NCBI GenBank assembly: GCA_021825925.1
Contig: JAKAFP010000003.1
Location: 186,001-250,000, forward strand
Direction: 5' to 3'
DNA from: Chloroflexota bacterium
Lineage (GTDB): Bacteria > Chloroflexota > Anaerolineae > Anaerolineales > Anaerolineaceae
Length of the DNA stretch: 64,000 nt
The position numbers and the translations under genes were made by a program. The notes under the pieces are model-generated. The model saw only the letters and a program-made list of their open reading frames with translations. It did not search any database and was not told where the DNA came from. How positions within the stretch are numbered: the first letter of the stretch is position 1; each line of letters starts with the position of its first letter. This document shows positions 8,263 to 60,432 of the stretch, in pieces.

Positions 8263-8277
8263 TTCTAGAAATAATTA
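8263..8277. repeat. TTCTAGAAATAATTA repeat, copy 1
   Basis: One of six copies of a short palindromic element whose fullest form is AATTATTTCTAGAAATAATT. This copy spans the stop codon of the acetyltransferase gene on the minus strand. Confidence 0.7.
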
Positions 8278-8835
8278 TAGATACTTTCTCATGATCGGCC
8301 GGGTCGGCTTTCGCCGTGCCACTTCCACATAACCCGCAGATTTAAAAGTGGAAGAAACGCCTGTATAAATGTCAGAAGAGCCGGTTTTTTTGTCTGTTTC
8401 ATAGGGATAGGACTCAACAATTTCCGTCCCGTGCGCTTTGGCGTATTGTTCGGCGGCCTCTATCAATTTTGACATCAATCCCTGATGGCGAAAATCGTGG
8501 TGAACAAAGAAACAGGGGATGGACCATACCGGTTGATCATCCACCGGGTAGAACAAGCGGGAAGTTGCAAAACGAATATAGTCTTCACGTGGGGCTACGG
8601 TCACCCAACCGGCCGCAACGCCGTCCACGTAAGCCAGCAAACCCGCTTCAACACCCCGGTGAACGAGCGTTCGCATCGCTTCCTTGAGGCCATCCTTGCC
8701 CAAAGTGTTGAAATCTTTGTTGCGCACCCGCCACCACATGCACCAGCAGCCAGCGCAGGTGGCATTGGTGTTAAACAAGTTTTCAAAATCGGGCCAACGT
8801 TCTGGCGTTAACGGAAGAATTTCAATAATTGGCAT
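8275..8835 (-). CDS. GNAT family N-acetyltransferase
   Basis: A 186-residue GNAT protein. The acyl-CoA loop region reads FFVHHDFRHQGLMSKLIEAA, with the Q/R-x-x-G/A-type turn HQGLMS, preceded by a beta strand WSIPCFFV. The N-terminus has an unusual Cys/Trp-rich patch CAGCWCMWWRV, seen in a subgroup of uncharacterised GNAT proteins. The substrate is unknown. It lies 10 bases downstream of the esterase gene on the same strand, so the two are probably co-transcribed. The stop codon lies within repeat copy 1. Confidence 0.82.
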   Translation of the reverse strand: MPIIEILPLTPERWPDFENLFNTNATCAGCWCMWWRVRNKDFNTLGKDGLKEAMRTLVHRGVEAGLLAYVDGVAAGWVTVAPREDYIRFATSRLFYPVDDQPVWSIPCFFVHHDFRHQGLMSKLIEAAEQYAKAHGTEIVESYPYETDKKTGSSDIYTGVSSTFKSAGYVEVARRKPTRPIMRKYL

Positions 8836-8845
8836 AATTGATTCC

Positions 8846-9787
8846 TCATTCGTTCAGGATGAATTTATTCGCTCTTGCGAGCACTTCATCAAAATTCGAA
8901 GGGATGTCGTGCTCCATTTCGGGGAAGACTTCCATTTCACACATTAAACCCTGATCATTAAATTTATCTTTCAATTTCATGGCGCCGGGAGTGCAGTGCT
9001 CATCCCGACCGCCCATGACAAAATAGCCGCGCAGATTTTTCAGGTTGGGCGTATTGAGAAGGGGCAGCCAGTTATTGACGTCTCCGACATAGGGAGCAAG
9101 GGCCAAAAAACCTCTGACAGGAAAGAAACCCTTAAGAGCCAGATGAATGGCGGCATGTCCCCCCTTTGAAAAACCGGCGATGATGGCCTTATTCTCATCA
9201 ATAGGGTATTGTTGTTTTATTATTTCATAATGGACTGGAATATCCTTTTCAAACCTGGTGGTATCGTTCCAGACATAAAGACCTTTGGCTGAAATTTCAG
9301 CCGATTGAGGCAACGCCACCAGCCAATTATTCCTGGTCAGAAACCCCCAATAATCCGAAAACCCCTGGGCGTTTGAATTGTTGCCGTGCAGCCCTATCAA
9401 CAGGGGAAGCTTGCTCACGGACGATTCAAGAGGTTCAAGAATTTTCAATTCAGGGCAGGTCTTGCGTTGTTCTTCTGCCAGGGTCATAAAACTGCGTTCC
9501 ACCAATGCTTCAAAACGGGGACGCCCCTGCAATGCTTTGAGATCTTCATCCCTGCGCAAAACAAAATCGTTATAGAAATAACCGAGATCCAGTGCCTGCT
9601 CGAGGATGTTTTCTGCCAGTTCGAGATTTCCCAGCATTGCGGCCAGGTCCACCCTGATCTCGTAGGCACGCCCCTGCCAGGCGGGATAGCGATCACAAAC
9701 CGAGGTCATTAAATCATAGGCTTTGGAATACTCTCCAGCCAGGTAGAGGTCAAATGTTTGTTTGAATTCAACTGGTTCATCTTTCAT
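8846..9787 (-). CDS. Alpha/beta hydrolase (phospholipase/carboxylesterase-like) with N-terminal helical repeat region
   Basis: A 313-residue protein in two parts. Residues 1-115 look like TPR-type helices (LYLAGEYSKAYDLMTSV, GNLELAENILEQAL). Residues 125-313 are an alpha/beta hydrolase with the oxyanion strand LPLLIGLHGNN, the nucleophile elbow AGFSKGGHAAI, an Asp in VMGGRDEHCTPG and a His in PEMEHDIPS. It is a likely intracellular serine esterase of unknown substrate. No signal peptide is present. It is the first gene of a unit with the GNAT gene. Confidence 0.8.
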   Translation of the reverse strand: MKDEPVEFKQTFDLYLAGEYSKAYDLMTSVCDRYPAWQGRAYEIRVDLAAMLGNLELAENILEQALDLGYFYNDFVLRRDEDLKALQGRPRFEALVERSFMTLAEEQRKTCPELKILEPLESSVSKLPLLIGLHGNNSNAQGFSDYWGFLTRNNWLVALPQSAEISAKGLYVWNDTTRFEKDIPVHYEIIKQQYPIDENKAIIAGFSKGGHAAIHLALKGFFPVRGFLALAPYVGDVNNWLPLLNTPNLKNLRGYFVMGGRDEHCTPGAMKLKDKFNDQGLMCEMEVFPEMEHDIPSNFDEVLARANKFILNE

Positions 9788-9920
9788 CTCTTACCTCCAT
9801 CCTCATATCTTTATTTTACACTTTTCTTTTTCGTATAGGTTGGTTACTGGAATTTTTAATCATCTCGTTGTATACTCGTTAACACACTATTTCTTTATCT
9901 TCTGAATTAAGAGGACGCCC

Positions 9921-11048
9921 ATGAAAGCCACAGTCACCCAACAACATTTGGCTCACGGACTCAGCGTGGTTAGCCGTGCGGTTTCTCCGCGCAGCACTCT
10001 GCCAGTTTTGGCAAACGTACTGGTGGCCACGGACGAAGGTCGCCTGCGTTTATCTGCCACCAACCTTGAAATGGGCATCACTTGCTGGATCCCTGCACAA
10101 ATCCAGGAAGAAGGCTCCATCACCGTTCCTGCTCGCACGCTGGTGGACCTTGTTGGAACTTTCCCCAATGAAAATGTACAGCTCACCCTCGATACCCGCA
10201 CCCAGACCATCACCCTGGTTTGCAACAGTTCAGTGCATGATATCAAAGGCATTGACGCACAGGATTTCCCTCCCATCCCGGTGCCCGATCTGGCCGAAGG
10301 AGTGGACCTCAATCTGGTGGATTTCCGCGAGATGATCCAACAGGTGGCTTTTGCCGCCTCTGCAGATGAAGCCCGCCCGGTGCTGCAGGGTGTCAAAATG
10401 GAAGTACAGGAAAGCCAGATCACTTTGGCTGCTACAGACGGATTCAGAATTTCCGTTCGAAAAGAACTGCTGGCCAATCCGATCAAACAAGAATTCTCGA
10501 TCATCATCCCCGCCCGCGCCATGAGCGAATTGGCCCGTATCGCAGGCGACAGCGACAAGACCGTCACCATGGTCGTGCCACAGGGCCGCGGACAGGTCAT
10601 TTTCCACCTTAATGACGCAGAACTGGTTTCACAATTGATTGATGGAAACTTCCCAGATTTTCGAGCCATCATCCCTCACAATTACAAAACCCGCACGACC
10701 ATCTCGACCCCGGCATTTCTCAAAGCCTGCAAGCAAGCCGAGATCATCGCGCGTGAAGGTAACAATGTAATTAAACTGAATGTCATTCCTGAAGAGAATG
10801 GAAGTGGTCGGGTCGAGATCAGTGCTTTGACTGAAGAGACCGGCAAAAGCGATATCCAGATGGAAGCCAACATTGAAGGCAACTCGTTGCTGATCGCCTT
10901 TAATGTACGTTTCTTGCGTGAGGTGCTGGATGTGATCAAGGCGCCCAGTGTGGCTTTGGAAACTAATGCCAACAACACTCCAGGCGTTGTGCGCCCTGTC
11001 GGCGACGACAACTTCACCCACGTGATCATGCCCATGCATTTGGGCTGA
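9921..11048 (+). CDS. dnaN: DNA polymerase III subunit beta (sliding clamp)
   Basis: A 375-residue beta clamp, full length for the family (three clamp domains of about 120 residues). MKATVTQQHLAHGLSVVSRAV at the N-terminus and GVKMEVQESQITLAATDGFRIS in domain 2 are diagnostic. LIDGNFPDFRAIIP gives the [LI]xGxFPDY motif of the partner-binding region, and the end VIMPMHLG fits the usual MPMxL tail. The clamp tethers replicative polymerase to DNA. Its position near DnaA boxes and parS is typical of origin regions, although dnaA is not in the window. Confidence 0.97.
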   Translation: MKATVTQQHLAHGLSVVSRAVSPRSTLPVLANVLVATDEGRLRLSATNLEMGITCWIPAQIQEEGSITVPARTLVDLVGTFPNENVQLTLDTRTQTITLVCNSSVHDIKGIDAQDFPPIPVPDLAEGVDLNLVDFREMIQQVAFAASADEARPVLQGVKMEVQESQITLAATDGFRISVRKELLANPIKQEFSIIIPARAMSELARIAGDSDKTVTMVVPQGRGQVIFHLNDAELVSQLIDGNFPDFRAIIPHNYKTRTTISTPAFLKACKQAEIIAREGNNVIKLNVIPEENGSGRVEISALTEETGKSDIQMEANIEGNSLLIAFNVRFLREVLDVIKAPSVALETNANNTPGVVRPVGDDNFTHVIMPMHLG

Positions 11049-11071
11049 TCCACACAATCTCTCGTAACGGA

Positions 11072-11095
11072 TTCCCCTCTCCAACGAGAGGGGAA
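11072..11095 (+). terminator. Hairpin after dnaN, probable terminator
   Basis: A 10-bp stem TTCCCCTCTC/GAGAGGGGAA (11072-11081, 11086-11095) around a CAAC loop, then ATTGTTTC. Its CCCCTCTC core resembles the larger hairpin at 35013-35067. Confidence 0.6.
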
Positions 11096-11110
11096 ATTGT
11101 TTCAGGAGAA

Positions 11111-11134
11111 TTAATTATTTCTAGAAATAATTAA
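11111..11134. repeat. TTTCTAGAAATAATT repeat, copy 2: perfect 24-bp palindrome
   Basis: TTAATTATTTCT followed by AGAAATAATTAA is a perfect 24-bp inverted repeat. It sits between an AGGAG (11104-11108) and the ATG at 11136. If it folds as a hairpin in the mRNA it brings the Shine-Dalgarno site next to the start codon. Confidence 0.85.
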
Positions 11135-11135
11135 A

Positions 11136-13454
11136 ATGGATTTCTTACCTAACTCCTCCGAACGATTATTGAGCCTCACCATCGCCCTGGGACAGTACCC
11201 CATATTGGGCACCAAAATTCGCGCGCGCATGCGTGCGGAATTGTTTAACCGCGGCATCATAGATCAAAAAGAATTTGAAGCCCAGGTTCGCAGTGAGGCC
11301 ATCCAGACCCAAAAAATGGAAGGCATTGACAACCCGTATTATCAGGAGCCTTCCGAGATATGGGAGACACGGAAATCCGTTTTGCGCGATCAACTGACAG
11401 ATCTGCTTTTCAGCCGTCACCTGCCATTCGAATTAATGGAAACCATGATCAGCGAAGTGCTGGTCGAAAAAGGCATCACCCCCACCGAACAACATCTGGC
11501 GATCAACCCTGAACTTGCGCCTCTGGACCTGGTCTTTGAGCAGGCGTTGACCATTGAACGCATGCCCGAAGAAACCAAAACCAGGCTGATCCCAAGGCTC
11601 GAAGAGACCAAAGTGGTGCTGATCCGCAGCATGATCAGCGACCATTTGCGCTACATCAACATTGCCAAGGAATGGTTAACGGTTAACGACCTGGCTGAAA
11701 TTCGCCGCAGAAAAATTGGCGCCGGAAGAATTGGTGGCAAGGCGGCGGGTATGCTGCTGGCCCAGCACATTCTCAAGAACTCACCTGATCTAGGCGAAAG
11801 TGCCAATATTTCTGTTCCTGAATCATTCTATGTTGGCTCAGATGAATTTTATAATTTTATTGCCCTGAATAATTTTGTGGGCTGGAACGACCAGAAATAT
11901 AAGACCGAAGAAGAAATGCGGGCAGATTTCAGCAAGATCGAGCAGGATTTCCAGACTGGCGATTTTGCACCATATTTCCTCGATCAGATCCAGACCATGT
12001 TGATCAAGATCGGCAAGCAGCCGTTGATCGTCCGATCGTCCAGTTTGCTCGAAGACAGTTTTGGAACTGCGTTCGCCGGAAAATACGAGAGTATCTTCTG
12101 TCCAAATCAGGGAACACTGGAAGAGAACCTGAAGGCTTTGACCAGCGCGATCGCCCAGATTTATGCATCCGTGTTCAATCCCAATGCTCTGGTTTACCGG
12201 CGCAGCAAAGGATTACAGGACTACGACGAGCGGATGGCGCTGCTGATCCAGATCGTGGAAGGCGAGCGATATGGCGACTACCTCATGCCGCATGCGGCAG
12301 GGGTTGCTTTCAGCCGCAACCTTTATCGCTGGGCACCGCAGATCCGCGTTGAAGACGGATTTGTGCGGCTGGTCTGGGGGCTGGGCACAAGAGCTGTTGA
12401 TCGGGTGGGGAATGATTATCCGCGTCTGGTAGCCTTGAGCCATCCGCTATTAAGACCGAGCAATGAACCTCAAAACATCCGCCGTTACTCGCAGCAGTAT
12501 GTGGATTTGATTGACCTGAAAGAAAACAAGTTGACCACTCTGGCTGTCAAAGACGTACTGGATGCTGATTATCCTCCCCTGCGCTACATTGCCCAAATGG
12601 ACGAAGGCGGTTATTTTGAATCCATCCGCAGTTTGATCATCAAAGACACTAAAGACCTTGTGTTAACTTTTGATGTACTTTTGCAGCGAACTCCGTTCAC
12701 AAATCGTATGAAAGGCATTCTACGAGCCCTTGAATTGGCTTATCACGCCCCGGTGGATGTGGAGTTTGCCTTGAGTCTGAAACAGGATGTCGGTTTGCAG
12801 CCCAAGTTGGGGATCGTCATGCTGCAGTGTCGTCCGCAAAGTCACCTGGGCGAATCTGATACAGAAAAGATGCCCACCAATCTTACTGAAAAAGAGGTGC
12901 TCTTTACCTCAGATTTCATGGTGCCACGCGGCAAGATAGACAAGATCAATTATGTGGTCTATGTAAACGCCAGGAATTATTTTGCCCTGAAAAGCAACGT
13001 TGAGAGAGTGGAACTTGCCAGAACCATCGGGCGGTTGAATGAAGCCCTACAAAAAGAGAAATTCATTTGTGTGGGGCCAGGCAGGTGGGGAAGCTCAAAT
13101 GCAGACCTGGGCGTACCAATTGCCTACGGAGATATCTACCATTCCAAAGCCTTGGTCGAGATGGCCGGAGAAAACCTTGGATTGCCGCCAGAACCTTCGC
13201 TTGGAACGCACTTCTTCCAGGACCTTTTGGAGGCGCAGATCTATCCTTTGGCGCTGCAATTGGACGATCCAAAGACGGTCTTCAATCGGGAATTCTTCGA
13301 TGAGATGCCCAATCATTTGAATGAATGGATTGCAGCGGATGAGCAATATGAAGGGTGTCTAAAATTGCTGGCGATTGGAGATTATTCCCCTGGGAAAACC
13401 CTGTCCATTATCATGAACGATGATGTTGGAAAAGTACTCGCTTATATCGCATAA
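11136..13454 (+). CDS. PEP/pyruvate-binding domain protein (PEP synthase/PPDK ATP-grasp-like), no phosphohistidine domain
   Basis: A 772-residue protein. After about 190 residues of helical N-terminus, RRRKIGAGRIGGKAAGMLLA and KQPLIVRSSSLLEDSFGTAFAGKYES match the nucleotide-binding domain of PEP synthase and pyruvate phosphate dikinase. GVAFSRN and RLVWGLGTRAVDRVGNDYPR continue that domain, and VMLQCRPQS marks its usual end. The swivelling phosphohistidine domain and the PEP-binding barrel are not recognisable. Instead the last 180 residues (FICVGPGRWGSSNADLGVPI) form an unrelated C-terminal region. It may phosphorylate or bind a substrate other than pyruvate; the function is unknown. The start is separated from its likely ribosome site by a palindrome. 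Confidence 0.8.
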   Translation: MDFLPNSSERLLSLTIALGQYPILGTKIRARMRAELFNRGIIDQKEFEAQVRSEAIQTQKMEGIDNPYYQEPSEIWETRKSVLRDQLTDLLFSRHLPFELMETMISEVLVEKGITPTEQHLAINPELAPLDLVFEQALTIERMPEETKTRLIPRLEETKVVLIRSMISDHLRYINIAKEWLTVNDLAEIRRRKIGAGRIGGKAAGMLLAQHILKNSPDLGESANISVPESFYVGSDEFYNFIALNNFVGWNDQKYKTEEEMRADFSKIEQDFQTGDFAPYFLDQIQTMLIKIGKQPLIVRSSSLLEDSFGTAFAGKYESIFCPNQGTLEENLKALTSAIAQIYASVFNPNALVYRRSKGLQDYDERMALLIQIVEGERYGDYLMPHAAGVAFSRNLYRWAPQIRVEDGFVRLVWGLGTRAVDRVGNDYPRLVALSHPLLRPSNEPQNIRRYSQQYVDLIDLKENKLTTLAVKDVLDADYPPLRYIAQMDEGGYFESIRSLIIKDTKDLVLTFDVLLQRTPFTNRMKGILRALELAYHAPVDVEFALSLKQDVGLQPKLGIVMLQCRPQSHLGESDTEKMPTNLTEKEVLFTSDFMVPRGKIDKINYVVYVNARNYFALKSNVERVELARTIGRLNEALQKEKFICVGPGRWGSSNADLGVPIAYGDIYHSKALVEMAGENLGLPPEPSLGTHFFQDLLEAQIYPLALQLDDPKTVFNREFFDEMPNHLNEWIAADEQYEGCLKLLAIGDYSPGKTLSIIMNDDVGKVLAYIA

Positions 13455-13455
13455 A

Positions 13456-14618: not shown

Positions 14619-14634
14619 TGTTTCACGTGAAACA
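14619..14634. promoter_or_regulatory. parS: parS site 1 (ParB binding)
   Basis: TGTTTCACGTGAAACA, a perfect match to the 16-bp palindromic bacterial parS consensus. ParB loads here and the ParABS/SMC system segregates origins. It lies in the gap between the YhfC gene and the ABC permease gene. Confidence 0.95.
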
Positions 14635-14656: not shown

Positions 14657-14672
14657 TGTTTCACGTGAAACA
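14657..14672. promoter_or_regulatory. parS: parS site 2 (ParB binding)
   Basis: A second perfect TGTTTCACGTGAAACA, 38 bp from the first. Paired parS sites near dnaN and DnaA boxes mark the origin domain. Confidence 0.95.
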
Positions 14673-21381: not shown

Positions 21382-22392
21382 ATGTCGGAACAAAACGAAA
21401 TTCAAATCAAGGATCTCATCCTCAGAGCTTTGGCGAAAAGACAGCCGATCATTACCCCGGGGCATGACTGTGCCGTGCGGTTGTTCAATGGTTTTTATGA
21501 AGGAAACCGCGATCTTGTCGCGGACCTCTACGGTACCACTTTGGTCCTCTTCAGCCACGCTGAAAACGAAGAAGACTCCATCGTCCTTTCTCAGGATGCA
21601 CGCGATGTTTATCTGGAAGCCCTGCCGTGGATAAAATGCGTACTGGTCAAACATCATAACGCCCGCGAAAAGGATCTGCGCAACGGGGTGATTACCTTTG
21701 GCAGCAAGCCGGATGATGTGGTGGTTGAACACGGAATCAAATACGCTGTGGATCTAAAGCTAAACCAGGACGCCAGTTTTTACCTGGACACGCGTAATTT
21801 GCGCAAGTGGATCCTGAACCACGCCAGGGGGTTGGAAGTGCTCAATACTTTTGCCTACACCGGCAGCCTTGGGCTGGCCGCTCTCGCCGGGGGAGCTGCA
21901 AGTGTTTTTCAACTGGACCGCAACCGCAAATTCCTTGACCTTGCCAGACGGTCTGCCATGCTCAACCGGCTTGATCTGGGGAAAATGAAATTGGCTGCGG
22001 TAGACTTTTTTGTAGGCATTGGACAGCTCAAACGCAGCAATACGCTGTTTGATATGGTCATTCTTGATCCGCCCTTTTTCTCGGTGACCGAAAAAGGCAT
22101 GGTGGACCAGGCCAAAGAGAGTCATCGTCTGGTTAACAAGGTTCGGCCGCTGCTGAGAGACGGCGGACGCATCGTGGCAATTAACAATTCGCTCTTTCTA
22201 GAGGGGATTGAACTGATTCGTTCGCTTGAGGAACTCGGGCAGGATGGTTATGTGTCCATTGAAGAGGTCATCCCTGTACCGGAAGATATTACTGGTTTCC
22301 CTGACACCATCCTGGGGAAACCCCCGATTGACCCCGCTCCCTTTAGTCATCCCACGAAGATCGTGGTGCTCAAGGTCAAGCGCAAGGAGTAA
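21382..22392 (+). CDS. Class I SAM-dependent rRNA methyltransferase (RlmI-like)
   Basis: A 336-residue protein. An N-terminal beta-rich part is followed by LKLNQDASFYLDTRNLRKWI, then the SAM motif VLNTFAYTGSLGLAALAGGA, the acidic residue in VFQLDRNRK, and the catalytic VILDPPFFS. This order is that of RlmI/YccW-type 23S rRNA cytosine C5 methyltransferases, though the usual PUA domain is not obvious. The ATG at 21382 fits the family; a TTG at 21349 is the other option. The gene overlaps the 3' end of the opposing APH-like gene by 17 bases. Confidence 0.83.
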   Translation: MSEQNEIQIKDLILRALAKRQPIITPGHDCAVRLFNGFYEGNRDLVADLYGTTLVLFSHAENEEDSIVLSQDARDVYLEALPWIKCVLVKHHNAREKDLRNGVITFGSKPDDVVVEHGIKYAVDLKLNQDASFYLDTRNLRKWILNHARGLEVLNTFAYTGSLGLAALAGGAASVFQLDRNRKFLDLARRSAMLNRLDLGKMKLAAVDFFVGIGQLKRSNTLFDMVILDPPFFSVTEKGMVDQAKESHRLVNKVRPLLRDGGRIVAINNSLFLEGIELIRSLEELGQDGYVSIEEVIPVPEDITGFPDTILGKPPIDPAPFSHPTKIVVLKVKRKE

Positions 22393-23380
22393 TTTTTTCT
22401 AGAAATAATTGTACCCAGCCGGGAACAGCATCTGCTTCTTTGGACTTGTCAGGTTCCGGCAGGGTTGAAACCACCATGTGCCAGGTAAGTGCGCGGTTAA
22501 TTCTTCCAATGACCATTGCCAACTCGAAGGCTTCTTGCAGGCCATCCCATTTAGCATAATCCAGCCATTCCTTTAAATAAAGGTCCGTAAGTTCACGAAT
22601 TTCAGGTGAACTCTCTTCAAGCTCAAAGCGGTAGGCAATTGAGCGCAGGGTCACCACCAGGGTAAAAAATGGATGAGCGATAAAGGATTCTGCCCAATCA
22701 AAAAACTTGAATCCGTTTTGATCAATAAAAATATTACCATCATGAAGATCATCATGCTGCAGCGTCTCAGGAATTCCAAATTGCGACAGAATCTCGCACT
22801 TGGTTTTTAATTTGGGCAGGTAACCCAAAAAAGCTTCATAGTCAGCAGGGGATAGCCCATCAGGCTGCCCGATGCACAGGGCTTGCCGCTCTTCCGCCAA
22901 TCGTTTTACCAGTCCAGGCAATACCGCGAGGCTGCGATCCTTCACCCCGAGGACCAACAATTCCTGTTGGTGCGGAATCATGGCTTGCTGAAAGCGGGCG
23001 TATGCCGGGAGTATTTTCTTCCAATAATTAAGGGTTGGGTTTTGCTCCAAGACCTGGCGAAGGGTCGTCCCGCCTTCAGGCATCAGCATCCACCCTTTAT
23101 CGGGCTCGATCTCCAACACAGGTTGAATCATCCCGGGCTGCCAGTGAAAGAGCTGTTGGGTGAGAAGGGGTTCATGATTCAGAACAGGACAGAGCGCTTT
23201 GAAATAGAACGGTACCTGGTTGGTGAAAATTTTATAAACCACTGACCAGGGAGCAGAATGAATTAAGATCGGGCGGGAAATGGTTTTGATATTGTGTTGG
23301 TGGAGCTGCGTGGTTGCCCAATTTTCAATGCCGAGTAACCAGTTCTCTTGTTGCCAGGGTAAAAGGTCACTTTTCTGCAT
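22376..23380 (-). CDS. Aminoglycoside phosphotransferase (APH) family kinase
   Basis: A 334-residue protein with the APH/choline kinase catalytic loop LQHDDLHDGNIFID (catalytic Asp in HDDLHDGN) and the metal-binding DWAES about 12 residues later. The N-lobe is divergent (ILIHSAPWSVVYKIF). Such kinases phosphorylate small hydroxyl or amino substrates; a resistance role is not implied. The ATG at 23380 follows AGG; a TTG at 23395 is possible. Its last codons lie inside repeat copy 3, and its 3' end overlaps the methyltransferase gene. Confidence 0.82.
   Translation of the reverse strand: MQKSDLLPWQQENWLLGIENWATTQLHQHNIKTISRPILIHSAPWSVVYKIFTNQVPFYFKALCPVLNHEPLLTQQLFHWQPGMIQPVLEIEPDKGWMLMPEGGTTLRQVLEQNPTLNYWKKILPAYARFQQAMIPHQQELLVLGVKDRSLAVLPGLVKRLAEERQALCIGQPDGLSPADYEAFLGYLPKLKTKCEILSQFGIPETLQHDDLHDGNIFIDQNGFKFFDWAESFIAHPFFTLVVTLRSIAYRFELEESSPEIRELTDLYLKEWLDYAKWDGLQEAFELAMVIGRINRALTWHMVVSTLPEPDKSKEADAVPGWVQLFLEKITPCA
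22396..22410. repeat. TTTCTAGAAATAATT repeat, copy 3
   Basis: An exact 15-bp copy directly after the methyltransferase stop. On the other strand it falls inside the last codons (QLFLEK) of the APH gene. Confidence 0.75.
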
Positions 23381-26041: not shown

Positions 26042-26617
26042 TCACAACAGTTTATTTACCAGGCTGGTTACAAACTGATGGCGAGTCTCGGTGTCACAAA
26101 TATTAATCCCAAGGCTGTCTTCGTTGAGCCTTGGTGCCAGAATTGCCATGAAGCAGGCGGAGGCAATCTGAGAACAGGCAAGCTTAAGTTGTTCAAGGGT
26201 TAAAGAGGTTCCTCGTTGATGCAAGTCGTTACAAAGATTTGTCATGAATACGGTGTAACGCTTCACAACCAAAGAATCATAATTACCTTCGGTAATAAGC
26301 TCGTAAAAATGGGCGCGAGTAATTCCTTGGTAGTTGCAGCCGCCTGCGATCAGGTCTTCAAAAACAGCAATGCAGCGTTCTTTGGCTGTGCTGCCGGGCA
26401 AGGCTTGAATGTCATCCCAGTCGAAGGCGTTATTCAGTGTGGTTTCCATCACCTTTTCGATCAGGTTTTCTTTGCTGCGAAAATAATAATTGATGGCGGC
26501 CAGGTTGACTCCGGCTTTTTCGGCGATTCGGCGATTGGTGGCGCCTTTCAAGCCAAATTCTTCAATACACTCTATGGCAGTTTCAATAATTTTAATTTCG
26601 ATATTATCAGTCGTCAT
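26042..26617 (-). CDS. TetR family transcriptional regulator
   Basis: A 191-residue TetR protein. The N-terminal helix-turn-helix reads GLKGATNRRIAEKAGVNLAAINYYFRSKENL, with the usual YYF-K turn. The C-terminal ligand domain (helices rich in Leu and Cys) is of the YbiH/DUF1956 length. It is divergently transcribed from the SDR operon. The gap between them carries inverted GATTCAAA-type repeats, so it most likely represses that operon and itself. Confidence 0.9.
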   Translation of the reverse strand: MTTDNIEIKIIETAIECIEEFGLKGATNRRIAEKAGVNLAAINYYFRSKENLIEKVMETTLNNAFDWDDIQALPGSTAKERCIAVFEDLIAGGCNYQGITRAHFYELITEGNYDSLVVKRYTVFMTNLCNDLHQRGTSLTLEQLKLACSQIASACFMAILAPRLNEDSLGINICDTETRHQFVTSLVNKLL

Positions 26618-35001: not shown

Positions 35002-35012
35002 CATTTTATTTT

Positions 35013-35067
35013 CCCTCACCCCTGCACCCCTCTCCCAAGCCTGGGAGAGGGGACGGGGGTGAGGGGG
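35013..35067. repeat. Large GC-rich hairpin repeat between aguD and aguA
   Basis: CCCCTCTCCCA (35027-35037) pairs with TGGGAGAGGGG (35042-35052), and outside that CCCTCACCCC (35013-35022) with GGGGTGAGGG (35056-35065). The CCCTCACCCC...CCTCTCCC layout is a common intergenic repeat type; the shorter hairpin after dnaN shares the core. Confidence 0.75.
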
Positions 35068-35071
35068 TTTG

Positions 35072-35086
35072 TTTCTAGAAATAATT
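35072..35086. repeat. TTTCTAGAAATAATT repeat, copy 4
   Basis: An exact 15-bp copy, 22 bases upstream of the aguA start codon and directly after the GC-rich hairpin. Confidence 0.75.
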
Positions 35087-40749: not shown

Positions 40750-41370
40750 TTAAAAGATAATTCCTCGCTGGGTCAGTTCATCCGCCAATTGCTGTGCGGA
40801 GGTAAACTGGATGGTCTGAAAACCCAGGGTTTGGGCAGTGTGGATGTTGGCGGCAGAATCATCAATGAAAAGGCATTCTTCTGCCTGGCGTTGGATCTTG
40901 TTAAGGAGCGTGTGGAAGATCTCAGGCTCTGGCTTGACCTGCTTTACCGTGCCAGACAGAACGTAATCATCTAGATAATCCAAAAAGACCATGCGGTCCT
41001 TGACCAGATCGAATTTGGTTTCACTCCAGTTGCTTAATCCAAACAAAGTAAAGCCAGCTTCTTTCAATCTACGGGCTATCTCGACAGTATCCATCATCAC
41101 TTCACCCATTGCGTCCATCCAATGGGAGTTGAAAAGCCGGATCATGGCTTCGTGCTGAGGGAACTCGGCAACTTTTTCTTCAACCCCTATTTCAAAGGAA
41201 TAACCCTTATCGAATTTTGGATTCCAATTTTTGAAATCAATTTCTTCGAGAAATAATCTGATCTCTTCATCGCTGGACATCACTTTGTTATAAAGATAAT
41301 ACGGACTCCAATCCACCAACACGGCGCCGAAATCGAAGATGATGATGGGGAGTTTGGTCTGGCTAGTCAT
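40750..41370 (-). CDS. HAD family hydrolase (subfamily IA, YihX-like)
   Basis: A 206-residue HAD phosphatase. Motif I is IIFDFGAVLVDW, with the nucleophilic Asp and a Gly two residues later in place of the usual second Asp, as in YihX-type proteins. Motif II is GLSNWS, motif III has Lys in VKPEPEIFH, and motif IV is LFIDDSAANIHTA. It probably hydrolyses a sugar phosphate. It is co-transcribed with the aldo/keto reductase. Confidence 0.88.
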   Translation of the reverse strand: MTSQTKLPIIIFDFGAVLVDWSPYYLYNKVMSSDEEIRLFLEEIDFKNWNPKFDKGYSFEIGVEEKVAEFPQHEAMIRLFNSHWMDAMGEVMMDTVEIARRLKEAGFTLFGLSNWSETKFDLVKDRMVFLDYLDDYVLSGTVKQVKPEPEIFHTLLNKIQRQAEECLFIDDSAANIHTAQTLGFQTIQFTSAQQLADELTQRGIIF

Positions 41371-45932: not shown

Positions 45933-45950
45933 GATCCCTCCGCTTAATTG

Positions 45951-45965
45951 TTTCTAGAATTAATT
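45951..45965. repeat. TTTCTAGAATTAATT repeat, variant copy 5
   Basis: A variant with one changed base; with its flank it reads AATTGTTTCTAGAATTAATT. It spans the activase stop codon and lies just before the ribosome site of the flavoprotein gene (minus strand). Confidence 0.65.
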
Positions 45966-53275: not shown

Positions 53276-54319
53276 TTATCTGACCGGCCAGAAACCGGGC
53301 AGGGTAAGCCGTATGATCACGTCGAGGATAATGCCTAGCACAAAGAGGTTGCTAAATAGGCGGTTGTGATAAAAAGCGAAACCGGAGAACCAGGTTGGCC
53401 AGTAGGTCCATTCTTTTGGGGGTTCAACGGGGCGTGGTTTGGCGTGTACTCCAACCGCAAAAAGTAATCGCTTGCCGGCGATTAGAACGATCAATAATGC
53501 AGGAGTGAAATAGTGGGGTACAAATATCAAATACAGGATGACCAGATAGATCAAAACCAACACGACCATGTTGACATAACGGGCTGCTTTTTCACCGATC
53601 ACCACGGGCAAGGTGCCCACTTTTTTGACCCGGTCTTCAGCGGATTTATCAATGTGTTTGCCGATATTGATGCTGACGACACTTAGGCCGAATGGAACTG
53701 CGGCCAGAGCGGCTTGCCAAACGGAATTCACCATGCCGCCAGCCATGACCAGGTAAACCCCTGAAGCCATGATCGGTCCCCAGATCAAAAAGATGCTCAA
53801 CTCGCCCAGGGCAATGTGTTTCAGCGGCCAGGTATAAAAGAGCAGCACCATTATGCCAAAGGCAAACAGGATAATTATTTCTACCGAAAAATGGGTGTAG
53901 ATCATCGCAAAGACACCCGATAGAAAAGCGAGTGTGCCGCTGACGGCAAACCATTTGAGTTGGGTTTTCTTGTCCCAGAACTTTTGATAGAGTGGATGAA
54001 CGCCATATTGAATGCGGAAATAATCCATGGCGTCAATGCCGCGAGAGAAATCAGTATAATCGTTCAACAAATTGTTCGTACCGTGAGCCAGAAATAATCC
54101 GAGCGTGATGATCAACCAAACCACCGGGTGAAGAAAACCATCCCGCCAGGCCAGGAGGCCGCCAATGGCACAGGTATACAGGGTCACCATGGTCACACCG
54201 GAACGGGTGGCGATCAGCCATTTGGATATCACGTCCAATGAACGCCATTCTTCAATGGAGTCCATTTTCACCAGCGAGCTGAACGCTCTTTTCCACATTG
54301 CGAAGTTAATTCGCATCAT
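53276..54319 (-). CDS. UbiA family prenyltransferase
   Basis: A 347-residue protein with about nine helices. HGTNNLLNDYTDFSRGID is the N-D-x3-D region that binds polyprenyl diphosphate through Mg, and NIGKHIDKSAEDRVKKVGTLPVVIG is the second conserved Asp-rich stretch of UbiA enzymes. It could be a menaquinone-type (MenA-like) enzyme or another prenylating enzyme. Its place directly before cydA suggests it provides a quinone for the oxidase (inference). Either of two ATG codons at 54319/54316 could be used. Confidence 0.82.
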   Translation of the reverse strand: MMRINFAMWKRAFSSLVKMDSIEEWRSLDVISKWLIATRSGVTMVTLYTCAIGGLLAWRDGFLHPVVWLIITLGLFLAHGTNNLLNDYTDFSRGIDAMDYFRIQYGVHPLYQKFWDKKTQLKWFAVSGTLAFLSGVFAMIYTHFSVEIIILFAFGIMVLLFYTWPLKHIALGELSIFLIWGPIMASGVYLVMAGGMVNSVWQAALAAVPFGLSVVSINIGKHIDKSAEDRVKKVGTLPVVIGEKAARYVNMVVLVLIYLVILYLIFVPHYFTPALLIVLIAGKRLLFAVGVHAKPRPVEPPKEWTYWPTWFSGFAFYHNRLFSNLFVLGIILDVIIRLTLPGFWPVR

Positions 54320-55021: not shown

Positions 55022-56257
55022 TTAGTCGGTGGTCAAAACGGTTTCTTCTGCCTGAATGGTACCATTCTTTTGCGCTGGAATTTTGATGCGCATGGTGGCA
55101 AAGAAGTTAATGATCGCTATCAACACACCCAATAAGAATACGTATTGAAAGCCAAAATGGTTCCAAATCACGCCTCCCAAAAGGGCGACGCTGATGGAAA
55201 AGACATGATCTATTGTGATCGAAGCGGAAAGCGCGGGTTGAATATCTGAATCTTGAAGCGCAATCTTTTTCATATAGGTTGAACGAGCCATGTTGACAGA
55301 CATCAGCACCTGGTCAAGCAGGTAGCAGACACAGGCAAGGATGAAGGCTACATTTAATGGCAATATGGATTTGCCAAAACCGTATCCCAGGCAGACAAAC
55401 GCCAGCAGTACCGCCTCGGTGGCCAGCACAACTTTTTCACCCAGTTTGTCAATTGCCCTCCCAAGAAGGGGTTGAAAGAGGATGCCGATCACGCCGCCAA
55501 TAATGAGCAGGGTGGCGATGGTTTGCGTGGGTTTACCGTAGATGGTCACAATCACCCAGGGGGCAAAGGTCATAAAGATCTGTTTTCTGGAGCCATATAG
55601 AACTGATAGAACGTAAAAGAGAGTGTATTCCTTGCGCAGTTTCAAGAAGGTTTTGGTGTTGACTTTTTCAACTTTGGACGGCTTCATCAATGCCATCATG
55701 ACCATGGCAACGGCGTAGCTTATTGAAGCCATAATGAAGGTGTATTCATAATTAAAATTCAGGTACTTAAAACCTAGAAAAACGAGGCTGCTGCCGAAGA
55801 TGACCGCCAGGTTGCGGATCGCGTTCATCTGTCCCAGGCGCTGGCCGGTCTTTCCCTCTCGAGCCAGTTCCATCCCCACCGTGGAGGCGACGGGCAAAAA
55901 GAGGTGCTGTCCCATGCTGCAGATGAAGAGGAACATGACCATGACCGTATAGGTTTTTGAGGCAAACCCAACCAGAAAAATGCCGATGCTGCCCAGGAGC
56001 AGGGCAAAGGCACCCATTTTACGGCTGCCCAAAAACCAGAGCATTGCTGATACAAACACGACAATAAACCCAGGGATTTCACGCGGCAGTTCCAAAAAGG
56101 ACCGTTGGAATCCGGTCAGCGAAAAACTGTCATTGAGAAAGTTATTTAATGTTGAATCAATCAGGCTGGCACCCATGCCCACGGCAAAGGTGGCAATGAT
56201 GAAAAGGGTCAATTCTCGGGAAAGATGGGAATACTTGGTGCGAAAGATCTGAAGCAT
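55022..56257 (-). CDS. MFS transporter
   Basis: A 411-residue carrier with 12 helices. MLWFLGSRKMGAFALLLGSIG is the loop after helix 2, and GRAIDKLGEKVVLATEAVLL the corresponding loop in the second half. The substrate is unknown. It is close to the VTT gene. No drug- or sugar-specific motif is visible. Confidence 0.85.
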   Translation of the reverse strand: MLQIFRTKYSHLSRELTLFIIATFAVGMGASLIDSTLNNFLNDSFSLTGFQRSFLELPREIPGFIVVFVSAMLWFLGSRKMGAFALLLGSIGIFLVGFASKTYTVMVMFLFICSMGQHLFLPVASTVGMELAREGKTGQRLGQMNAIRNLAVIFGSSLVFLGFKYLNFNYEYTFIMASISYAVAMVMMALMKPSKVEKVNTKTFLKLRKEYTLFYVLSVLYGSRKQIFMTFAPWVIVTIYGKPTQTIATLLIIGGVIGILFQPLLGRAIDKLGEKVVLATEAVLLAFVCLGYGFGKSILPLNVAFILACVCYLLDQVLMSVNMARSTYMKKIALQDSDIQPALSASITIDHVFSISVALLGGVIWNHFGFQYVFLLGVLIAIINFFATMRIKIPAQKNGTIQAEETVLTTD

Positions 56258-56323
56258 ATGTTTTTCTGCGATTCTGTTAGTGATTTAGTGGGTTGATTTT
56301 AACATACGCAATCTTGACCCGGG

Positions 56324-57247
56324 TTAGTTCCAGTCAGCATACCGAGAATTTGGATAGATTTGTTTCAGGCAATTCATCAATATCGGTTTGAGTTGTTCCA
56401 CCATGGCCATTTTACGGTGTTCCGGCTGATCTTTATAGCCCACGATGAGAAAGAAATAGATGCTTCTTAAAAACAATTTTGTATTTACTCGTGCACAGTT
56501 CCAGGCAGGATGAGTAAAAGCTTCCTTCCAATCCATGTGGCCTGATGACGAGACGAAACTCTCAAACCAGCTTCTAAAGAATTCCTCTGAAACCAGATCG
56601 CGCTGCAAAATGTTCATTACCACACCAGACAGGCGCTCTTCTTCGTTATGAACAAAAACCTGTTTCACCGGTGTCGTGACACGCACTTGAAGTGAATTCA
56701 GTATTTCTTCCAGATCCTGCTGCCCAAGGCAGGGATGGACGGCAAAATCACCCAGCAAATCGCCGGTATGGGCGGCGCAGTGAGCCCAGCCCTTGCCTTG
56801 AACGAATCCGCGCAAGTCTTTTTCTTCGACAAGCAGCTTGAGGGAGGTTTCCAGCCATGATCGGATCTGTTCTTCATTGAACAGGATGGATAAGCCTTTT
56901 TCTCGCCGGCTGATGTCCACTTCCAAGGTTGCAGCCAGGATCAAGGTTGAAAAAGCCCTTAAAAAGATGCTGTCCGACTCGACCTCTCCCAGTCCGGCGG
57001 TTAGGTTGGCGGACATTTGTTGAGCGATAATGAGCAGTTCGCTGTCATTGTATTGTGATTGTGCGATCCAGGTCCACAGCACATCCAGACTGTTTTCGCG
57101 CAGTTCGGAATCCGTCGAGCCTAAATTGGTCATCAACCCCGGCAAATAATCCATCGCCTTGCCTTCAGCCGGGACTTTAAACTCGGAAAGGATGATCTGG
57201 TCAAGCAAAGGTTGGTCCACCTGGACCGATGAACTTTGGGGCATCAT
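56324..57247 (-). CDS. DUF2785 family protein
   Basis: A 307-residue, mostly helical protein. KDLRGFVQGKGWAHCAAHTGDLLGDFAVHP is the hallmark of the DUF2785 family, and VNTKLFLRSIYFFLI in the C-terminal part also fits. Function is unknown; helical repeats suggest binding. It overlaps the uridine phosphorylase gene upstream by 4 bases (ATGA), so the two are translationally coupled. Confidence 0.82.
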   Translation of the reverse strand: MMPQSSSVQVDQPLLDQIILSEFKVPAEGKAMDYLPGLMTNLGSTDSELRENSLDVLWTWIAQSQYNDSELLIIAQQMSANLTAGLGEVESDSIFLRAFSTLILAATLEVDISRREKGLSILFNEEQIRSWLETSLKLLVEEKDLRGFVQGKGWAHCAAHTGDLLGDFAVHPCLGQQDLEEILNSLQVRVTTPVKQVFVHNEEERLSGVVMNILQRDLVSEEFFRSWFESFVSSSGHMDWKEAFTHPAWNCARVNTKLFLRSIYFFLIVGYKDQPEHRKMAMVEQLKPILMNCLKQIYPNSRYADWN

Positions 57248-58020
57248 TTTTTTTGGTCCAATTTGATCAAGTTCTTGATACCCTCGACGGCGACTTTGAT
57301 CACGCTTTCGGCATCGAATTCTTGCATGTGTTTATCTTCTCCCGTTTCTTCAGCTAGCTCGGATTCATTGATCACCAGCATCACACCGCCAGCTCGTTTT
57401 CGATAGATGGACGCCAACACGAAAATCGCGGAGGATTCCATTTCGGAGCACAAAGCACCGCCAGCCACCCAGGCATTCCAACGTTCTTCAAGATGGGCGG
57501 CCATGGGCATGCGGGTGCGTTCCACCTCACCGTAGAACGAATCTTTGGATTGGGAAACGCCGCAGTGATGAGACCGTCCAAGTTCCCTGGCGGCGGTTTG
57601 CATGGCGGTGACCACATCTACGTTGGCTACAGCGGGAAATTCCACCGGCAGGTAATGCGAAGTGGTGCCTTCATCGCGGATGGACGCGGTGACCACCACG
57701 ATATCGCCCATGTGCACATCGGCCTGCATTGAGCCGGAAGAGCCCACCCGGACGAAAGTATCAGCGCCGACATCCACCAGTTCTTCAACGGCGATGGCAG
57801 CCGAGGGGCAGCCGATGCCGGTGGAGACCACGGAAACTTTTTCACCTAAAAGCGTTCCCGTCCAGGTGACGTATTCGCGGTTTTGGGCTACAAAATGAGG
57901 GTTGTCAAAATATTGGGCGATCTTTTCGCATCGGCCGGGGTCACCGGGAAGCAGTACATAACGTCCAACATCGCCTTCCTTGATGTGTAAGTGAAAAGCC
58001 AAACCTTCTTCATTGCGCAT
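57244..58020 (-). CDS. udp: Uridine phosphorylase
   Basis: A 258-residue nucleoside phosphorylase of the NP-I family. LLPGDPGRCEKIA binds phosphate, VVSTGIGCPSAAIAVEEL and VRVGSSGSMQ are the base/ribose site, and GTTSHYLPVEFPAVA followed by SKDSFYGEVERT fits uridine phosphorylase. CSEMESSAIFVLASI supplies the ribose Glu/Met-Glu. It cleaves uridine (or a related nucleoside) with phosphate. The C-terminal KHMQEF fits Udp too. It is coupled with the DUF2785 gene. Confidence 0.88.
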   Translation of the reverse strand: MRNEEGLAFHLHIKEGDVGRYVLLPGDPGRCEKIAQYFDNPHFVAQNREYVTWTGTLLGEKVSVVSTGIGCPSAAIAVEELVDVGADTFVRVGSSGSMQADVHMGDIVVVTASIRDEGTTSHYLPVEFPAVANVDVVTAMQTAARELGRSHHCGVSQSKDSFYGEVERTRMPMAAHLEERWNAWVAGGALCSEMESSAIFVLASIYRKRAGGVMLVINESELAEETGEDKHMQEFDAESVIKVAVEGIKNLIKLDQKK

Positions 58021-58115
58021 GGTTTACCTCATATTAAGGAATTGGAGTTTGATTATAGCGTATCAACGGGAATCAGAGAAAGAAGAAAATTAATAAAACG
58101 CTTATAGAATACCGC

Positions 58116-58145
58116 TTGACAAATTGATGTCCGTCTATATATAAT
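58116..58145 (+). promoter_or_regulatory. Promoter of the arsR-arsM operon
   Basis: TTGACA (58116-58121) and TATAAT (58140-58145) with an 18-bp spacer, both consensus, 10 bases before the arsR start. ArsR probably binds over this region. Confidence 0.75.
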
Positions 58146-58154
58146 AATTTCATC

Positions 58155-58439
58155 ATGAGTACAGTAAGTTTTGCCAAGGCACTGGCGGATGAAACCCGTC
58201 AACAAATAATGCGCATTTGTTGCTGCAAGTTGTTAAGTGTTAACGATATCGTCGAACAAACAGGCGTGACCCAACCCACTGTGTCTCATCATCTCAAGAT
58301 CTTGCGTGAGGCAGGATTGGTGAAGGTGGAACGCCGCGGAAAGGAGATTTACTATTGTCTGAATCAAGAACGGCTGGCTTCTTCTTGCTGCCAGATCGCT
58401 GAAGCTTTTGCTCCTGACGTAGATGTCAAGATGATGTAA
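58155..58439 (+). CDS. arsR: ArsR family regulator, probable arsenite sensor
   Basis: A 94-residue winged-helix repressor. LADETRQQIMRICCCKLLSVNDIVEQTGV holds three adjacent cysteines (C22-C24) in the helix before the DNA-binding helix, and the recognition helix follows (TQPTVSHHLKILREAGLVKV). A further Cys pair lies near the C-terminus (SSCCQIAEAF). Cysteine clusters in this place sense arsenite or antimonite. It is followed after 64 bases by an ArsM gene, so arsenic is the likely inducer. Confidence 0.9.
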   Translation: MSTVSFAKALADETRQQIMRICCCKLLSVNDIVEQTGVTQPTVSHHLKILREAGLVKVERRGKEIYYCLNQERLASSCCQIAEAFAPDVDVKMM

Positions 58440-58503
58440 GTAAAATTTTTTAGACTAACATATCGAAATATATAAATATGTCTATTTGGTAATTGGAGGA
58501 AAA

Positions 58504-59355
58504 ATGGCAAGTCAAACCATCAACAATGATGAAACAAAAGTCCGCAAGGCGGTTAGGGAACATTATGCCGGAGCGGCAAAAAGCGTCAGCAGTTGCTGTG
58601 GTGGAGGAACCCCCAAAGCCAGTTCCTGCGGATGCGGCACCTCGACCACGGCGGCAGAACCTTCCACTAAAGGGCTGTACAACGCCGAAGATTTCGACTC
58701 CCTGCCCGAGGATGTCACTAACATCTCGCTGGGGTGCGGTGACCCGGTGACCCTGGCCTCTCTTAAGCCCGGGCAAACTGTACTTGACCTTGGATCGGGC
58801 GGCGGGATTGATTGTTTTTTGGCGGGCAGAAAAGTTGGCTCGACTGGAAAAGTGATCGGGGTGGAAATGACCCCCGAAATGCTCGACAAGGCGCGCGCCA
58901 ATAAAGCCAAGATGGGCGCTGATAACGTGGAATTCCGTCTGGGCGAGATTGAACACCTGCCGGTCTCTGATAATTCAGTGGATGTGGTCATTTCAAACTG
59001 CGTGATCAATCTGAGCCCAGATAAACCTCAGGTGCTGCGAGAGATCCTGCGCGTGCTCAAACCCGGCGGGCGCATGGCGGTCAGTGACATCGTCACCAGC
59101 GGGGATCTGCCCCGAGATATTAAAGCCAGCATGAGTTCCTGGGTGGGCTGCATTGCCGGCGCCATGGATGCTGATGAGATGGCTTCTCTGATGAAAGAAA
59201 TCGGTTTCACCAATATCTCATTCAAGCCAAACTATTTCAGCAAAGAAATGGTGGCAGATACCGTCAAGCAGGCCGGGTATACCGGCGGCATGAGCAACGC
59301 AGAGCTGCGAAAGGCTGTCTTCAGCGCCAGTATATCCGCGGAAAAACCGGTGTAA
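58504..59355 (+). CDS. arsM: Arsenite methyltransferase
   Basis: A 283-residue SAM methyltransferase of the ArsM type. DLGSGGGIDC (95-104) is the SAM loop. C78 (ISLGCGDPV), C166 (VISNCVINL) and C216 (WVGCIAGAM) match the three conserved arsenic-binding cysteines. An added N-terminal Cys-rich patch (C31, C32, C42, C44) may deliver metal or be structural. The enzyme methylates As(III) to volatile or less toxic species. TTGGAGG precedes the ATG. It is co-regulated with arsR. Confidence 0.95.
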   Translation: MASQTINNDETKVRKAVREHYAGAAKSVSSCCGGGTPKASSCGCGTSTTAAEPSTKGLYNAEDFDSLPEDVTNISLGCGDPVTLASLKPGQTVLDLGSGGGIDCFLAGRKVGSTGKVIGVEMTPEMLDKARANKAKMGADNVEFRLGEIEHLPVSDNSVDVVISNCVINLSPDKPQVLREILRVLKPGGRMAVSDIVTSGDLPRDIKASMSSWVGCIAGAMDADEMASLMKEIGFTNISFKPNYFSKEMVADTVKQAGYTGGMSNAELRKAVFSASISAEKPV

Positions 59356-59378
59356 ATTTCTAAATGGATTAGGTATGG

Positions 59379-59406
59379 GTACGGGCGTATGGCCATACGC
59401 CCGTAC
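59379..59406. repeat. GTACGGGCG palindrome, copy 3
   Basis: GTACGGGCGTATGG and its exact inverse, a third perfect 28-bp palindrome, between arsM and the opposing RNHCP gene. Core TATGGCCATA. Confidence 0.85.
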
Positions 59407-59411
59407 AAAAA

Positions 59412-60071
59412 TCAGTCTCTAACAACCACCTCGGATTCCGGCTCGAAGGGGATTAACCCGGCTTCGTCCAACAAGTGGCCGTGTGGCTCAAATTCTTCGA
59501 GAATGCTCTGCCAGCCGAACAACTGCGAATAAACCACGGTCAGATCAGAAGTTCCCAGCAATCTTATACCCTCGTCCAAAATTAAATTTTTCCATTTCAA
59601 AGTCAGCGCCATTGAACGGTTAAAGACCTGATAGATCACGGCTGCGTCATCATCTGCCGCGATGCGATTGATCGAAAGTTTACCGCAGCCGGTGCAGCGA
59701 TGGATCAGCATCAATTCACCTAGCGCTTCACGGTTGTAACGTTTCGCTGTTTGCTTGAGGGTTAACCCCAGCGGCTGCATACGGCTCTTGCATTCGGCCT
59801 TGCGGTCGCCTGCTTTTAATTCATCCACATGTTTGGACCACAGACAGCGCGGGCAGTGATTACGGTTGTTCACACCGGAGGCTTCTCGGGAAGTCGTGAC
59901 GGAATAACCGCACTGCGCACAGCTGAATCCTTTTTCGTTAACCTTGCCTTCACGGCGAGGTTCTTCGCGATCATGGTCTTCCCACTTGTGGGAAGTATGT
60001 TTAATTCTTTTTTCAAAAGCGGTGTCCAGAAACTCGTCATTGGTAAACCGCGTGTTATGTTTATGCTTCAT
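59412..60071 (-). CDS. RNHCP domain zinc-binding protein
   Basis: A 219-residue protein. FSCAQCGYSV (C51, C54) and GVNNRNHCPRCLWSKHVD (C73, C76) form the RNHCP zinc-ribbon signature; a second C-x2-C follows at 126/129 (HRCTGCGK). Function is unknown; RNA or protein binding is possible. The N-terminal 45 residues are charged and His-rich. The long leader with a terminator just before its ribosome site suggests control by attenuation. Confidence 0.8.
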   Translation of the reverse strand: MKHKHNTRFTNDEFLDTAFEKRIKHTSHKWEDHDREEPRREGKVNEKGFSCAQCGYSVTTSREASGVNNRNHCPRCLWSKHVDELKAGDRKAECKSRMQPLGLTLKQTAKRYNREALGELMLIHRCTGCGKLSINRIAADDDAAVIYQVFNRSMALTLKWKNLILDEGIRLLGTSDLTVVYSQLFGWQSILEEFEPHGHLLDEAGLIPFEPESEVVVRD

Positions 60072-60078
60072 AGGTACC

Positions 60079-60116
60079 CCAACAAAAACAACCCGCCTTG
60101 GATCATCCGTGGCGGG
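60079..60116 (-). terminator. Terminator/attenuator immediately before the RNHCP gene
   Basis: CCCGCC (60092-60097) pairs with GGCGGG (60111-60116), with an inner GGAT/ATCC, and the minus-strand tail is TTGTTTTTGTT. It lies between the promoter at 60374 and the RNHCP start. Confidence 0.75.
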
Positions 60117-60367
60117 CTGTCTTTAATCAACAATTCTGATTAAATAAAGACTGAACTTTGGGGAACGTCTAACACATCAATGGGTGCAAAACGGTCATCG
60201 TACGTCTTAAAAACAAACCACGGAGCAAGTGAGCACCCGTGGCAGAAAAAGATTAAACCAAAGACTGGTTGAGCCTTTTCTTACGGGCGCACCCTTGCAA
60301 TAAGTGTGGTTACAATGACCGAAGCGAAGTTAAACAAAAAACATCCTTTTATGGTTTATATACAACA
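60117..60367 (-). ncRNA. Long structured leader or small RNA
   Basis: Transcription from the promoter at 60374-60401 would run about 280 nt to the terminator. Nested complementary segments form a rod of about 130 nt: CGGTCAT/ATGACCG (60192-60198, 60315-60321), AACCAC/GTGGTT (60216-60221, 60306-60311), 60225-60240 with 60283-60298, AGAAAA/TTTTCT (60244-60249, 60276-60281) and AACCA/TGGTT (60256-60260, 60266-60270). No reading frame of note is inside. The shape is like 6S RNA but no known family is recognised; a riboswitch or leader for the RNHCP gene is the other option. Confidence 0.55.
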
Positions 60368-60373
60368 AGCAGA

Positions 60374-60401
60374 ATTATCGCACAACCTGCCAGGTTGTCA
60401 A
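60374..60401 (-). promoter_or_regulatory. Promoter of the structured RNA with overlapping inverted repeat
   Basis: On the minus strand TTGACA (60401-60396) and GATAAT (60379-60374) are 16 bp apart. ACAACCT and AGGTTGT (60382-60388, 60392-60398) form an inverted repeat that overlaps the -35 and spacer, as expected for a repressor site. Confidence 0.7.
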
Positions 60402-60417
60402 GACATCTTGGTAAATG

Positions 60418-60432
60418 TTTCTAGAAATAATT
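60418..60432. repeat. TTTCTAGAAATAATT repeat, copy 6
   Basis: An exact 15-bp copy, 5 bases past the stop codon of the diguanylate cyclase gene (minus strand). Confidence 0.75.

Follow-up and report, generated by a model that had tools for sequence, protein, structure and literature searches.

A genus-conserved palindrome clustered around dnaN and parS in Anaerolineaceae: putative binding sites of a protein of the replication-origin domain

We describe a 20-bp palindrome, AATTATTTCTAGAAATAATT, that recurs in a stretch of 64,000 nucleotides (the window; positions 186,001 to 250,000 of contig JAKAFP010000003.1, here C15) from a Chloroflexota bacterium of the family Anaerolineaceae. The source genome, G000, is a metagenome-assembled genome (MAG) of 3,397,431 bases in 15 contigs, with a completeness of 84% and a contamination of 5.6%, and C15 (491,150 bases) makes up 14.5% of it. 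The window holds dnaN, an origin landmark that encodes the DNA polymerase III beta clamp (9921..11048, plus strand; C15:195921-197048), together with two perfect matches to the canonical parS sequence TGTTTCACGTGAAACA, at 14619..14634 (C15:200619) and 14657..14672 (C15:200657); the second starts 38 bp after the first, and the spacing is the same in G013, a close relative in the same genus. Matches to parS with 0 to 1 mismatches also lie near dnaN in G004 (a more distant member of the genus), G012, G013, and G025 (from another genus). Three exact DnaA-box matches (848, 870, and 1244) are found on the minus strand within 405 bp (848..1252; C15:186848-187252), a group that, judged by its sequence, is a possible oriC at some 9 to 14 kb from dnaN and parS, and a SpoVS-family gene (1316-1600) sits beside it. 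Cumulative GC skew, computed, like all our analyses of context, spacing, and distance, over 400 kb of C15, has its minimum at ~197 kb, and in the stretch studied from G013, the minimum falls at dnaN. The main chromosomal parB gene of G000 is located at C14:254704, on a contig other than that of the parS sites and dnaN.

The copy of the palindrome at 11113..11132 is perfect and starts 65 bp past the end of dnaN. The copy at 8257..8276 (AATAAATTCTAGAAATAATT) overlaps the terminal bases of a GNAT-family gene and has orthologues in G013 (at 22114) and in G004 (at 105396), where the palindrome is perfect; that at 22391..22410 (AATTTTTTCTAGAAATAATT) marks the meeting point of two convergent genes, overlapping the ends of both, and has orthologous sites in the same two genomes. 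Orthologous sites are likewise present in G013 for the copies at 35067..35086 (GTTTGTTTCTAGAAATAATT), ahead of a PAD_porph-family gene, at 45946..45965 (AATTGTTTCTAGAATTAATT), between two tandem minus-strand genes, and at 60413..60432 (AAATGTTTCTAGAAATAATT), just past the end of a GGDEF gene. A weak intragenic site at 41239..41258 (AATTTCTTCGAGAAATAATC), with three mismatches when the center is left free, has no counterpart in G013 or G004, and a variant at 63970..63989 (AATTCTTTCAAGAAAAAATT) lies inside a DUF6391 gene; the same 20-mer as this variant occurs in G013, G001, and G010, which may reflect coding conservation. All of these are symmetric sites, which we term class A. Directly 5' of the site at 35067, a GC-rich palindromic stretch resembling a repetitive extragenic palindrome (CCCTCACCCC...GGGGTGAGGGG) spans positions 35010-35066.

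The original prediction, made from the letters of the window, had placed a recurrent 14- or 15-mer at six gene edges, as parts of a 20-bp palindrome best preserved beside dnaN, and had judged the recurrence to be beyond chance. These points stand: the six places agree within two bases with the six strong copies, with a seventh at 63970, and the copy beside dnaN is the perfect one. Seven 20-mers in the window lie within three mismatches of the palindrome (0.00 expected), and the predicted 14-mer, TTCTAGAAATAATT, is matched 15 times when up to two mismatches are allowed, a count made over both strands in which a palindromic site may count twice, against 0.61 expected and a maximum of 3 in 100 shuffles. 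Chance is excluded as the source of the recurrence. The placement at gene edges describes the six strong copies well, but 7 of the 19 class A sites in the 400 kb, the variant at 63970 among them, lie within genes or overlap both gene ends. A further claim, that copies decay on the left side only, is contradicted by the copy at 45946, which differs on the right too, and by the sites at C15:111270, 252204, and 255428, which decay on the right; the list that stood beside that claim had been anchored on the right half.

A transcription terminator or an RNA-processing signal, the second of which had been among the suggested functions, would suit the many copies that come after stop codons. It would also suit the G+C-rich, terminator-like hairpin in the dnaN spacer (11072-11095), which lies 3' of dnaN, just before the palindrome, and is kept in the genus. 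When the six strong copies were folded as RNA, however, five had a minimum free energy of 0 and the perfect copy reached -1.2 kcal/mol, so that none of the six forms the stable hairpin of an intrinsic terminator; an RNA element was rejected because five of the six copies are unfolded as RNA. Clustering around the origin and intragenic copies would, moreover, be unexpected for such a signal, and we consider this explanation extremely improbable.

Sites were counted by their mismatches to the palindrome, with the reversed sequence as a control. An iterated matrix scan at a low threshold was discarded (130 sites above 12 bits against a mean of 61 for shuffled matrices) and replaced by these mismatch counts because it had drifted to general AT-rich sequence. 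The arms AATTATT/AATAATT, with up to two mismatches, gave 29 hits when six bases apart and 9 to 15 hits at each of eight other spacings between 2 and 10, and the peak at six was repeated in G004 (14 versus 1 to 8) and in G013 (21 versus 5 to 11). The inner hexamers found most often were TC[NN]GA, which defines class A with its half-site AATTATTTC and its free two-base center, and TCTTCC/GGAAGA, which defines an asymmetric class B. Two class B sites lie in the window on the plus strand, both intragenic: AGTATTTTCTTCCAATAATT at 23010..23029 and AATTATTTCTACCGAAAAAT at 53873..53892, the latter perhaps a product of coding conservation. After removal of class A, 18 class B sites remained in G000, 10 of them on C15 (p 6e-5), with one match for the reversed control; we regard class B as the less certain of the two since some of its sites lie inside conserved coding sequence.

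Within three mismatches, G000 has 18 sites and the reversed control has none, and 17 of the 18 are on C15, between 85,908 and 328,198 (binomial probability, 8e-14; the one at C15:85908 is an asymmetric class B site); the motif thus belongs to one region and is not a general feature of the genome. A degenerate pattern with up to two mismatches gave 24 sites, 18 on C15 (binomial probability, 4e-11) and 6 elsewhere; the reversed control gives 4, and so these 6 look like background. Exact copies of TTTCTAGAAATAATT are confined to C15, from 111270 to 283506. The 18 class A sites with up to three mismatches and a free center extend from -89 to +128 kb relative to parS, at a mean distance of 48 kb, where uniform placement over the 400 kb would give 100 kb (p 5e-5); when a site with four mismatches at 392908 is added, the mean becomes 56 kb (p 3e-4). 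This clustering around two perfect parS sites, dnaN, and the skew minimum argues that the palindrome marks the domain of the replication origin. Three class A sites fall within ~1 kb (C15:251211-252223) around two small genes; the idea that these genes encode a self-regulated binder was dropped because they have no orthologues in the stretches of G004 and G013 that were compared.

Comparison of 61 genomes, 16 from the genus (G000 included), 21 from other genera of the family, and 24 from other families of the order, showed that the arrangement of the sites is a conserved trait of the genus. All 16 genus genomes have at least one site (1 to 21 each, against 0 to 1 for the reversed control), the 21 genomes from other genera have 0 to 8 (control, 0 to 2), and no sites were found in the 24 genomes from other families. 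The site downstream of dnaN is present, with 0 to 4 mismatches, in all 14 genus genomes in which the dnaN spacer was aligned (G000 included; the remaining two, G002 and G007, have a broken or partial dnaN), at dnaN identities to G000 of 72 to 99%, and the spacer around it has drifted except for the terminator-like hairpin; G002 itself has a site with one mismatch ~70 bp beyond its dnaN match. In 16 genomes from other genera, the loci flanking dnaN showed no such site. In the 11 genus genomes other than G002, G006, G007, G012, and G013, 65 of 114 sites are on the contig that bears dnaN, against 6.5 expected from genome sizes that, apart from that of G000, were rounded. As judged by eye, G013 has a counterpart in place for 11 of the 13 assessable sites of G000 (the misses being 227239 and 251211; the sites at 111270, 139418, 251746, 252204, and 328179 were not assessable), and G004 has one for 4 of 13 (194257, 197113, 208391, and 255428).

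Orthologous placement also bears on the suggestion that the palindrome is a small mobile or selfish element inserted close to the origin, a view for which the existence of many short, near-identical copies might be cited. Nothing is visibly common to the window copies beyond the 20 bp, many sites occupy orthologous places in relatives, and the dnaN site keeps its place across the whole range of dnaN identity while the spacer differs. A search of 257 Gb of genome contigs for the exact 20-mer gave 13 stretches, of which 8 belong to Anaerolineaceae/Chloroflexi MAGs (two to a single MAG) and 5 to unrelated AT-rich bacteria (27 to 33% GC over the stretch), a count that supports the original prediction's guess at Anaerolineae; the 20-mer also occurs in two AT-rich viral contigs from one sample. 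The exact copies outside the clade, in AT-rich genomes and viral contigs alike, are strays. A mobile palindrome was accordingly rejected on its orthologous placement and on the occurrence of mere strays in unrelated genomes and viral contigs, and we attach next to no probability to it.

The suggestion of a regulator site deserves more weight: the evidence supports a site for protein binding, although one with the look of chromosome organization more than of a promoter operator. Gene context was read with a home-made gene caller, and small predicted open reading frames at 246315 and 252206 were taken to be spurious. Ordinary transcription-factor operators, belonging to a regulon whose genes happen to sit near the origin, would account for a long perfect palindrome, which is typical of operators, and for the position of 9 of the 12 intergenic class A copies, which lie in tandem gaps 4 to 127 bp ahead of a predicted start codon. 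They would not readily account for the concentration of 17 of 18 sites on one contig, for the 7 of 19 sites in or overlapping genes, or for the finding that none of the 12 intergenic copies is in a divergent gap, a class to which 32% of intergenic bases belong (p ~0.01); nor do the annotated neighbors (dnaN, GNAT, methyltransferase, permease, peptidyl-arginine deiminase family, GGDEF, and radical SAM genes) share a common pathway. On balance, operators are an unlikely explanation, although one with a real claim to attention.

Two protein families, TetR_N and ParB_N, were searched over the genomes for a candidate binder. The palindrome might serve the chromosomal ParB as an alternative or auxiliary nucleation site, or it might be the site of a Noc-type ParB paralogue: it has TTTC/GAAA in common with parS and surrounds parS, the Noc-binding site (NBS) is likewise a palindrome related to parS, and G000 encodes four further, weaker ParB_N proteins beside the main ParB, with more than one ParB_N protein also in five other members of the genus. 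The palindrome itself does not have the form of the 16-bp parS, however, having a center of 2 bp, compared with 4 bp in parS, and AATTA arms, and perfect parS sites exist separately; canonical parS with at most one mismatch lies near dnaN in G000 as in the four genomes named above. The center of the NBS, too, is 4 bp. A single full ParB_N hit was obtained in each of seven motif-bearing genus genomes, G004 (99% complete) and G001, G005, G006, G007, G009, and G011 (68 to 91%), so that no genus-wide second ParB was found, and in a hand alignment, the main ParB retains the equivalents of R173 and G201, positions at which Noc carries Q and R. Copy number and specificity residues thus disfavor a genus-wide second ParB, and a Noc-type paralogue is an unlikely binder; taken together, the ParB and Noc explanations appear very unlikely.

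Among TetR_N proteins (16 in G000, 3 in G004, 3 in G015, 5 in G018, and 11 in G027), 31 of the 38 hits were compared, 30 from loci and 1 from the window. One TetR group is common to all three genus members, at 66 to 79% identity, and its best matches in the motif-less G018 and G027 reach 26 to 35%, partly over short stretches. The stand-alone TetR of this group (L154:1444-2055) has, over the 61 genomes, an orthologue (66 to 93%) in 12 of the 16 genus members, G000 included, and full or partial homologues (26 to 52%) in 19 genomes outside the genus. Its neighbors differ between subgroups of the genus, as would be expected of a trans-acting protein. This TetR is the sole named lead to the binder, a candidate that we hold to be rather doubtful. 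Against the RefZ model (NCBIfam NF037937; cutoff, 180 bits) it scored 33.9 bits, and a second TetR, encoded within the cluster on the minus strand of the window (26042-26617), scored 46.8 bits, so that neither qualifies as a RefZ orthologue. RefZ is nevertheless the best NCBIfam match of the window TetR. The latter protein is matched in G013 by a counterpart at 79%, and the set of TetR proteins compared includes a 47% homologue from the motif-less G027.

We suggest that the palindromes are probably, though by no means surely, binding sites of an origin-domain protein with a role like that of Noc, SlmA, or RefZ. A sequence-specific, probably dimeric DNA-binding protein would recognize the ~18 sites through the half-site and its free two-base center, and we infer that the 20 bp are covered by one dimer or a pair of dimers and that binding would serve an architectural or cell cycle role. 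Lying between about -90 and +130 kb relative to parS, such sites would label the origin domain, and the bound protein could signal the position of the origin to the cell in the service of segregation, anchoring, or division control; the options include condensation or anchoring of the origin and the restraint of division over it, as distinct from the switching of single genes.

Several observations weigh against this proposal. The tandem copies ahead of predicted starts, considered above, are what operators would produce. The cluster is lopsided, with six sites at +46 to +55 kb from parS; the skew minimum in C15 is shallow, and in the G004 stretch it falls at 62 kb, 35 to 40 kb away from its parS and dnaN. 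With the source MAG incomplete, contaminated, and divided among 15 contigs, no distance to the terminus is obtainable. Nine of the 13 assessable sites lack a counterpart in G004, and few sites are present in G005 (2), G012 (1), and G014 (4). G025 has eight motif-like sites (reversed control, 1), none of them on its short contig with dnaN and parS, and clustering at the origin may therefore hold only in the genus of G000. Finally, the stand-alone TetR is missing from G006, G011, G012, and G014, four genomes that retain the dnaN site; 1.6 absences would be expected from the incompleteness of the genomes, and the probability of four or more is 0.06.

A broader proposal, to which we give somewhat less than even chances, is that of a new origin-marking system in a Chloroflexota lineage, in which a protein other than ParB, possibly the stand-alone TetR, would read both classes of site, symmetric class A within ~130 kb of parS and asymmetric class B somewhat more widely, and would couple the origin to segregation or division. 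If true, this would add a further independent system of origin sites to those of Noc and RefZ. Families of chromosome-domain sites are known from few model bacteria, and among the best-ranked open-license literature matches, we found no description of this motif or of any such site family for Chloroflexota. A genus-wide, origin-restricted palindrome offers a concrete DNA bait for the protein, and a binder found in that way would test whether origin-domain marking has arisen independently of ParB/Noc and RefZ.

Other site families restricted to a chromosomal domain, each bound by one protein, include matS/MatP and RacA/ram; matS marks the terminus region (Ter) and not the origin, ram serves anchoring in sporulation, and the sequences of both differ from the palindrome described here, as do those of the NBS and of the SlmA-binding site (SBS). 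The SBSs of Escherichia coli, bound by a TetR family protein, number 24 to 52, are palindromic, and are underrepresented in Ter, as described in PMC4726725; in G000, by contrast, the origin contig accounts for 17 of the 18 sites. The NBSs of Bacillus, bound by Noc of the ParB family, are also palindromic and underrepresented in the terminus region according to PMC4726725; they differ from our sites in being ~70 in number and widely spread, and no second ParB_N protein is common to the genus studied here. The likeness to parS/ParB, an origin-proximal palindrome with TTTC/GAAA, is offset by the separate presence of the two true parS copies in the window. The RefZ-binding motifs (RBMs) of Bacillus, bound by the TetR family protein RefZ, are, as set out in PMC6657595, near-palindromic, located near oriC and on both arms, and conserved within the genus in their positions relative to oriC. 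They number five in Bacillus subtilis compared with ~18 here, and RefZ works in sporulation and its model matches the proteins examined here far below the cutoff, but the RBMs share with our sites palindromes close to the origin and positions conserved within a genus, which in the present case holds for some sites, as the counterparts in G013 and G004 indicate.

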